Shown here piece by piece: positions 10,201 through 11,174 of a DNA stretch of 11,174 bases (its first letter is position 1; every line of letters starts with the position of its first letter). Origin of the DNA: Candidatus Peribacteria bacterium. GTDB lineage: Bacteria; Patescibacteria; JAEDAM01; Absconditabacterales; Absconditicoccaceae. Below the pieces are notes generated by a model. It ran no database searches and had not been told where the DNA came from. It was given only the letters and a program-made list of their open reading frames with translations. The position numbers were made by a program, and so were the translations under genes. The stretch is from positions 1 through 11,174 of the forward strand of contig JAISKI010000059.1 in the NCBI GenBank assembly GCA_031261265.1. Reading direction: 5' to 3'.

Positions 10201-11174
10201 CTATTTCTTCTCCCCGTTTTTCATCGCTCTCCTATACCCCCAAATCCCCAATCCCACAAACAGCACCACCAACACATACTTCGCTACCAAATTTTTCGCT
10301 TGTACAAAAATCGCATACTTTGCACCCCATTCCGATAATCCATAAATCACTTTCATCATCAGTACTTCCACTCGCACCCAACCACTTCGCGACACAATCG
10401 CGTACAACAGCATACACGCGAAGCCATAAATTGTCACGACAGGAATCAATGGCACGATTATCACATTCAGCAAAATTCCCACCAAATTCACCCCATTCAT
10501 AAAAAACATCAAAATCGGAGCAGTCCCCAAACTCGCTCAAATGGTAGGCGTTAAATACTCTTTCCATACCCCCCTTAGAAGGGGGGATAAAGGGGGGGTC
10601 TTTTTGCTTTCATTTGTTTGTTGTTTCGAATCCCCCCTTCCCCCCTTTCATAAAGGGGGTACTTCCGTCAATTTCTGAAACAACACAATTCCCACAATCG
10701 CACTGAAACTCAACAACAACCCCACATCATACACCAGACTAAACGGGCTAAAAAGCAGAATCCCCACAAACGCGTACTTCATCGACCTCCGAATCGACAC
10801 CTCACGCCCCCGAAAGAGTGCAATCAGTGTAAGACAACCCATTATCGCAGCTCTCACCACACTACTATCGCCCCCACAAATCATCGCATAAAAAATAATC
10901 ATCAGCAAAATCAGCCCGTTCCTGACATACAGAGGTACCCATTTTAAGAGGAAAGAAAGCAGAATCACGACCATTGCGATATTCCCCCCACTGACCGCGA
11001 TAATATGCACGAGTCCACTATTCGTAAAAGTTTCGTACGCTTCACTCGGTATCAGCGATTTATCCCCAATCAGCAGACCGAGTAGCAGTCCAGCATACTG
11101 ATTTTCTCCAAACATCTTCTCCACATAGCTCTGCATTCCTGCTCTTGTACGGTCAATCAGTCAGAGTTTTTTCT
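10201..11174 (-). CDS. comEC: ComEC/Rec2 competence channel, C-terminal part (5' partial)
   Basis: ComEC carries single-stranded DNA across the inner membrane in natural transformation. The minus-strand frame enters at the window edge and runs at least 323 residues to TAG at 10203-10201, with UGA glycines at 11163-11161, 10650-10648 and 10539-10537. Competence-domain signs: GLLLGLLIGDKSLIP, GLVHIIAVSGGNIAM (family HxxAxSGxH region, with N where His is usual), SSVVRAAIMGCLTLIALFRG, LLFSPFSLVYDVGLLLSFSA, and LGTAPILMFFMNGVNLVGI. After the last membrane helix the protein ends in RRAMKNGEKK, so the C-terminal metallo-beta-lactamase-like domain of longer ComEC proteins is absent. Between LSFSAIVGIVLFQKL and VWKEYL an extra peptide is encoded by a palindromic element (10567-10661). 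The N-terminal OB-fold region is outside the window. It converges with ftsW, stop codons 3 bases apart. Confidence 0.9.
10567..10661. repeat. Palindromic G/C-run element translated within comEC
   Basis: Six C, TTAG-AA, six G (10569-10586), then ATAAA and seven G (10592-10598), a 33-base AT-rich centre, then six C, TT, six C (10632-10645), TTTCATAAA and five G (10655-10659). The two ends are imperfect inverted repeats (TACCCCC...). TTCC flanks both sides (10562-10565, 10663-10666). The layout is that of a REP/MITE-like unit, not of coding DNA, yet it is open in the comEC frame when UGA is Gly and yields VPPLGKGGRGDS...TPPLSPLLRG. Confidence 0.75.

Follow-up and report, generated by a model that had tools for sequence, protein, structure and literature searches.

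How does a palindromic DNA of about 95 bp, rich in runs of C and G, come to lie in frame within comEC, and which enzyme, if any, moved it there? The question is raised by the window analysed here (the whole stretch of 11,174 nucleotides), where an earlier note, made from the letters alone, had proposed a translated mobile repeat. The features discussed below are the following (positions are those of the window).

7951..8985, plus strand: sua5; at about 8529/8530 (GIESTVVRV/EPSKIL) lies the empty site of the DUF559 insertion found in protein P0123

10201..11172, minus strand: C-terminal part of comEC, the host gene, open at the window edge (PF03772, E 2.5e-44; code-25 frame)

10567..10661, minus strand: the whole in-frame palindromic element, an insert of about 32 residues

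10569..10586: hairpin A, CCCCCCTT-AG-AAGGGGGG, then ATAAAGGGGGGG to 10598

10600..10630: linker joining hairpins A and B; longer elements have a DUF559 nuclease at the equivalent place

10641..10659: hairpin B, CCCCCTTT-CAT-AAAGGGGG, inverted relative to A, with the C-run CCCCCCTTC before it (10632..10640)

10648..10650, minus strand: in-frame TGA, read as glycine (G175 of the translated fragment), a reading supported by sua5

The palindromic unit itself is as the earlier note had described it. Hairpin A reads without interruption as CCCCCCTTAGAAGGGGGG (10569-10586) with a G-run after it, and hairpin B as CCCCCTTTCATAAAGGGGG (10641-10659) with a C-run before it. The two are inversely oriented, and their outermost runs are also predicted to pair. 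The pattern CCCCCTTN{0,12}AAGGGGG has two matches in the window relative to a maximum of zero in 200 dinucleotide shuffles, which bears out the unit with its inverted hairpins (10569-10661). Folding, which had been suggested as a check, gave -49.1 kcal/mol for the RNA of 10560-10670 (z -3.96 versus 200 shuffles). Under NCBI table 25 the comEC frame continues uninterrupted across the element, so that the insert is translatable as claimed; its peptide is VPPLGKGGRGDSKQQTNESKKTPPLSPLLRGV, followed by WKEYL, which is common to many relatives. The predicted location between two helices agrees with an AlphaFold2 model built on 35 sequences, where the insert is a low-confidence loop (residues 172-193, pLDDT < 50) with helices 150-169 and 197-225 on either side. 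TTCC, a putative target duplication, occurs at 10562-10565 and again at 10663-10666, flanking the unit. An Rfam search at gathering thresholds gave no match; among the 17 plasmid records that the 95 bp hit, none covers 80% of it (lowest E 0.8).

It had also been claimed that the frame survives only because UGA is sense here. This is literally true, but the element is not special in this respect: two other TGA codons (G4 and G212) occur in the window's comEC fragment, and the gene thus needs recoding with or without the insert. The UGA inside the element is incidental. As to its meaning, a TGA codon of the window sua5 aligns with the glycine of the ET(V/I)YGLGAN stretch in solved Sua5 structures, and this alignment suggests that TGA is most likely a glycine codon here.

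Low-complexity G/C runs raise the prospect of an assembly error. The comEC frame is intact, however, and P0006, which comes from a separate sequence, shares the right-hand peptide PPLSPLLRGVWKEYL with the window at this comEC site, making an assembly error extremely improbable. P0006 is one of 34 ComEC homologues (of 120 listed; 431 were found) that were aligned with the query. At the same loop, P0002 appears to have a decayed insert, P0019 and P0023 have, by reading, different palindrome-type peptides, and in many other relatives the linker is short and charged and the junction is of KFWKEYL type. The clean empty site that the earlier note had hoped for in comEC relatives was not seen among them; element-less relatives have another short loop, as in P0017 ('...EKSKQKEKSDFFQSKFWKEYL'). 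These mixed loop contents indicate that the insertion is sporadic, at a comEC loop that tolerates inserts. Other translated repeats were noted in the ComEC loops of P0033, P0029 and P0035 (VIPAKAGIH-type, PPHPSPLHGEG-type and GNREQ-type).

A loop that varies among aligned relatives and is unstructured in the model could also be an ordinary ComEC linker shaped by low-complexity drift, with no mobile history. That reading is very unlikely given the empty shuffle control, the nearly empty reversed-pattern control and the presence of like hairpins elsewhere in related genomes. The latter were 25 genomes of Absconditabacteria/Gracilibacteria type, reached via 79 loci from a contig scan with the ComEC alignment. 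The pattern CCCCCTTN{2,10}AAGGGGG is present in 17 of them, and its reversed control gave zero in 24 genomes and one in the remaining one; membership in a repeat family is thereby supported. Counts reach 37 in G010, and other genomes with many hairpins are G018 (26), G012 (20), G014 (11) and G006 (10). G018 is an Absconditabacteria genome with a ComEC 64% identical to that of the window, and G001, the closest by ComEC (70%), has no exact hairpin.

In G018, 25 of the 26 hairpins are spanned by a frame that stays open for 200 aa or more (one of the 25, L118:2494, may precede the true gene start), relative to 626 of 800 random positions drawn from the fetched loci of G018 and G010. The host genes, according to Pfam, include those for arginyl-, leucyl- and methionyl-tRNA synthetase, GatB, MurB, a Mur ligase, two pseudouridine synthases and two radical SAM enzymes, among others. 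With frames open across nearly all copies, the inserts in G018 are most simply taken to be translated, not skipped. In G010, only 5 of the 31 hairpins examined (of 37) lie in open frames of this length, which means that gene residence varies by lineage and is not general.

Several observations stand beside this survey. Four G010 contigs (L145, L146, L147 and L139) stop no more than about 170 nt from a hairpin, as would happen if the repeats interrupt assembly. The window also has a 23-nt repeat, 91% identical, at 2731-2753 and 3547-3569, outside the listed genes, and a RhuM-type protein at 4214-5071 (PF13310, E 1.1e-19).

The mobile-repeat reading stands as regards family, frame and sporadic occurrence; what it missed is a DUF559 nuclease between such hairpins. 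In the LeuRS and RimO of G018, two such palindromes flank an in-frame DUF559 domain (PF04480, Pfam). Searching all 25 genomes for DUF559 yielded 43 rows, spread over 17 genomes; merging the two rows of a broken gene left 42 places. Perfect hairpins with a pyrimidine 5′ arm, at most 250 nt from DUF559, were scored at places with enough sequence. They occur upstream at 27 of 40 places, downstream at 24 of 39 and on both sides at 18 of 37, compared with 7 of 284 background windows of the same loci (p 2.6e-23 upstream and 4e-20 downstream). Per genome, DUF559 is present in 16 of the 17 with hairpins and in one of the eight without (Fisher p 1.3e-4, genomes taken as independent), and the two are concordant in 23 of 25. 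G001 has two DUF559 genes, one with a one-sided hairpin and one without any; G004 has one hairpin and no DUF559. The association recurs in a second set of 25 genomes, with 18 DUF559 rows in 10 genomes. Fourteen rows (7 Chloroflexota, 6 Doudnabacteria and 1 WOR-1) were examined after fragmentary or weak ones (L246, L248, L250 and L252) had been left out, and hairpins were found upstream at 8/14 and downstream at 9/14 (background 2/81). Moreover, the stem sequences vary between DUF559 elements (CCCTCCTT, CCCCCCTT, CCCCTCCTT and others), as would be expected of ends and not of pre-existing targets. Such hairpins are therefore likely the ends of longer DUF559-carrying elements, which are known from related genomes, not from the window's own.

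Could a different enzyme have moved the hairpins, with DUF559 as a passenger? Two short inverted hairpins in about 100 bp would suit a REPIN-like REP pair mobilised by a RAYT (Y1 tyrosine) transposase, and Y1 domains occur in 8 of 22 related genomes searched, among them G012 with its 20 hairpins. Against this, the hairpin-rich G010, G018, G014 and G006 gave no Y1 match; PF01797 (Y1/RAYT) is absent from these four and from G002, all of them related genomes and not the window's own. At the Y1 loci, which served as a control gene and of which 5 of 6 were usable, such hairpins are mostly lacking (0/5 upstream, 1/5 downstream), and no GTAG tag was seen by eye beside the hairpins of the window, where it was looked for. 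Since Y1 does not track the hairpins either in the genome scan or at its own loci, RAYT/REPIN is disfavoured as the mobiliser, and we regard this explanation as improbable. MnmA loci, also used as a hairpin control, have hairpins at 4/21 on each side; the MnmA linker is a hot spot in its own right, which makes MnmA unsuitable as a clean negative control.

Among the 42 DUF559 domains, 13 are read in frame as part of longer ORFs. Perfect hairpins accompany 11 of the 13, and in 7 they stand to either side of the domain. Ten of these ORFs were Pfam-scanned together, while L158 (the same as L129) and L175 (the same as L127) were scanned separately. A host could be assigned by Pfam for 11: LeuRS (two), MnmA (three), RimO, Tgt, Fmt, a Mur ligase, a small-domain methyltransferase (PrmC by reading) and a radical SAM protein (Elp3 by reading). 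By reading, L167 (G025) is another LeuRS host, the third. For L188, the ORF of which is ended by the contig end, the Pfam scan found no host domain.

Other genomes have empty sites at the corresponding positions. MnmA was found at a single place in each of 22 genomes searched, with DUF559 at the equivalent site in three. At the 9 of 22 loci that matched the spacing pattern, and in which gaps were counted, the gap is 148-202 aa in these three genomes and 13-40 aa in six others. For LeuRS, both sites could be read in 13 of the 16 genomes hit. At the first site the gap is 17 aa in four genomes and 22-39 aa in six; it is 47 aa with a hairpin insert (G018), 176 aa with DUF559 (G007) and 171 aa in G015 (L236), which has a different nuclease-type domain (PF13366, PDDEXK_3). 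By coordinates, G008:C12 and G012:C97 probably have a PF13366-type domain at this site too. The second LeuRS site (after VPAHDERD) has a NUDIX domain in G007 (L159 / L226, Pfam) and probably, by coverage, in other genomes, DUF559 in G018 and G025, and a short gap (82 aa to RQRYW) in four others; the G025 LeuRS (L167 / L225) has two further foreign-looking stretches beside DUF559.

The range of hosts widens when the nuclease portion of the RimO composite is searched against 5.8 billion proteins. This gave 42 longer proteins with the nuclease (345-1058 aa, query included), 37 of which have at least 60 residues on both sides; the nuclease is terminal in five (P0131, P0135, P0142, P0149 and P0156). 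Their Pfam columns or source names indicate hosts from unrelated families: RimO/MiaB, Sua5, MnmA, LeuRS, ValRS, RecG, MetH, methylmalonyl-CoA mutase, CinA, IspG and others. The few rows that name an organism point to Absconditabacteria/SR1, Bacteroidota-type genera, Ignavibacteria and Anaerolineae. A palindrome-type peptide lies to the left of the nuclease in 22/42 and to the right in 25/42, compared with 9/226 control windows, the motif being post hoc and composed from the same data. The statement in the earlier note that PPL-KGG and PPLSPL-type peptides recur in unrelated bacteria agrees with this search. The window provides an empty site of its own: its sua5 reads GIESTVVRV/EPSKILILRPGF, where P0123 has palindrome peptides and the nuclease.

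Is the insert removed from the protein? Pfam scans of ComEC and of the scanned composite proteins found no splicing (Hint) domain, and the insert is hence predicted to remain. In L175 no in-frame ATG, GTG or TTG occurs from 40 codons before to 15 codons after the domain start. Several other embedded copies have internal start codons near the DUF559 domain, so that production solely as a fusion is not established.

With respect to its kinship, the nuclease profile (an HMM built from alignment A3, the invariant residues of which include E54, D56, H60 and D69) matches PDB 3HRL (E 1.2e-27) and 3R3P, a 'mobile intron protein' (E 6.7e-6). We take 3R3P to be I-Bth0305I, a homing endonuclease of the EDxHD type. 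EDxHD is described as a homing family in PMC3943268. It is the longer forms that have this homing-family match (3R3P, 3HRL); the window element is without a nuclease. The RimO and Sua5 nucleases are 73% identical, and in a midpoint-rooted tree of 75 DUF559 domains the host genes are intermingled. Stand-alone copies of related genomes form one separate clade (support 0.88), and such stand-alone genes may behave differently from embedded ones. The tree took 38 of the 42 places (two truncated and two duplicated ones were left out) and 37 of the 42 proteins (without P0134, P0135, P0142, P0149 and P0155). A Foldseek search with a RimO-DUF559 model, the nuclease part of which has low to middling confidence, ranked RimO/MiaB structures first (4jc0, E 1.7e-22); none of the 50 matches listed is a nuclease. 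A Caulobacter DUF559 protein is described as Vsr-like (PMC12907096), and a Legionella repeated segment pairs DUF559 with a transposase (PMC12308824), which would leave room for another mobiliser.

What ties the window element to these longer forms are its ends. The 40-nt ends of the unit were compared with the 200-nt flanks of the 42 DUF559 places at E 0.05, giving 8 matches in 7 of 84 flank windows. Windows 700-900 nt from DUF559 (control total unstated) gave one match, which is a hairpin copy inside the G018 LeuRS. On the hairpin A side, 10579-10597 is identical (19/19 nt) to sequence beside a DUF559 of G006, and on the hairpin B side 10630-10647 is identical (18/18 nt) to sequence beside the DUF559 of G010:C65; these end matches are 18-19 nt of G/C-rich sequence. 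At the peptide level, IAPLNKGGRGDEI...nuclease...IPPTPLEKGG of L188 corresponds to VPPLGKGGRGDSK...TPPLSPLLRG of the window. Together with the findings above, these matches lead us to regard the comEC stretch as a translated, in-frame palindromic element that is probably a nuclease-less copy of a DUF559 mobile element with like ends.

The hairpins might instead be an orphan coding palindrome of the Rickettsia kind (RPE/CGTC) with no dedicated enzyme, acting as favoured targets of nuclease genes. Short palindromes in frame in conserved genes are inserted in the same mode, another nuclease-type insert occupies the same LeuRS site, and CGTC repeats apparently lack a dedicated transposase, according to PMC3733652. 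This explanation does not readily accommodate hairpins that lie close to DUF559 on both sides, inverted, with stems that vary by element, and we consider it unlikely. For the preferred reading, a copy derived from a DUF559 element, a sequence of events can be proposed. The nuclease would be produced within the host protein, as one of its domains, or by translation from an internal start, and would cut DNA at a target or hairpin, after which repair would copy the element into new sites. Loss of the nuclease would leave short hairpin pairs like that of the window, and these could be moved in trans. The only survivors would be insertions that keep the frame and lie in tolerant loops, the peptide being kept in the protein with no splicing. 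The sequences show the position of the element, its frame and the association with DUF559; its mobility and the action of the nuclease are what we infer.

How does such an element compare with known systems? The resemblance to Rickettsia palindromic elements (RPEs) suggested earlier stands for the mode of insertion, which is what the comparison covered: in the available portions of PMC10969869 and PMC2229807, RPEs are short palindromes, some 105-150 bp long, that are translated as in-frame parts of conserved genes unrelated to one another. The window element differs in its host phylum, in its C/G-run hairpin pairs and in its tie to a DUF559 nuclease, whereas those portions name no mobilising enzyme for RPEs. 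It is not classed as an RPE, the likeness of insertion mode being set apart from sequence kinship. With REP/REPIN-RAYT systems (REPtron) it has in common two inversely oriented hairpins, many copies in some genomes and a hairpin-flanked enzyme gene. Here, however, a DUF559/Vsr-like nuclease takes the place of the Y1 transposase, and one genome has many in-gene copies; the element is not classed as a REPIN because Y1 is absent from hairpin-rich genomes. Inteins and EDxHD homing endonucleases likewise put a nuclease into the reading frame of conserved host genes, and do so at recurrent sites. The DUF559 elements differ from inteins in their palindromic peptides at the ends, in having nuclease-less short forms and in the lack of a splicing domain in the Pfam scans, for which reason the comEC element is not classed as an intein. 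Finally, as in a MITE, a short copy without an enzyme has ends common with a longer enzyme-coding element (19/19 in G006, 18/18 in G010); it differs from a MITE in that the ends are hairpins, the putative mobiliser is a nuclease, not a transposase, and the target duplication (TTCC) is only putative.

Protein-coding palindromes have been known since 2000 (cited in PMC10969869). In-frame palindromes in Rickettsia and in-gene REPs in other bacteria are described in PMC10969869, PMC2229807 and PMC3733652, and PARCELs are tandem coding palindromes, a different pattern (PMC2996958). No enzyme that moves protein-coding palindromes is established in the available parts of this literature (PMC10969869 and others), and titles and abstract openings in a limited open-licence literature contain no link between DUF559 and palindromic repeats. 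The present case adds an enzyme class, DUF559, situated between ends of the coding-palindrome kind.

Lying between like ends and itself in frame in housekeeping proteins, DUF559 is a directly testable candidate for the mobiliser. We give roughly even chances to the wider proposal that DUF559 between translated palindromes constitutes a distinct in-protein mobile class: unspliced, resident in frame in essential genes such as those for LeuRS, MnmA, RimO, RecG and MetH, homing or transposing, shedding nuclease-less copies like that in comEC, and representing the long-missing mobiliser of many coding palindromes. If true, basic enzymes such as leucyl-tRNA synthetase can bear a selfish nuclease domain that is not spliced out, and many of the odd insertions seen among annotated proteins of bacteria would be accounted for.
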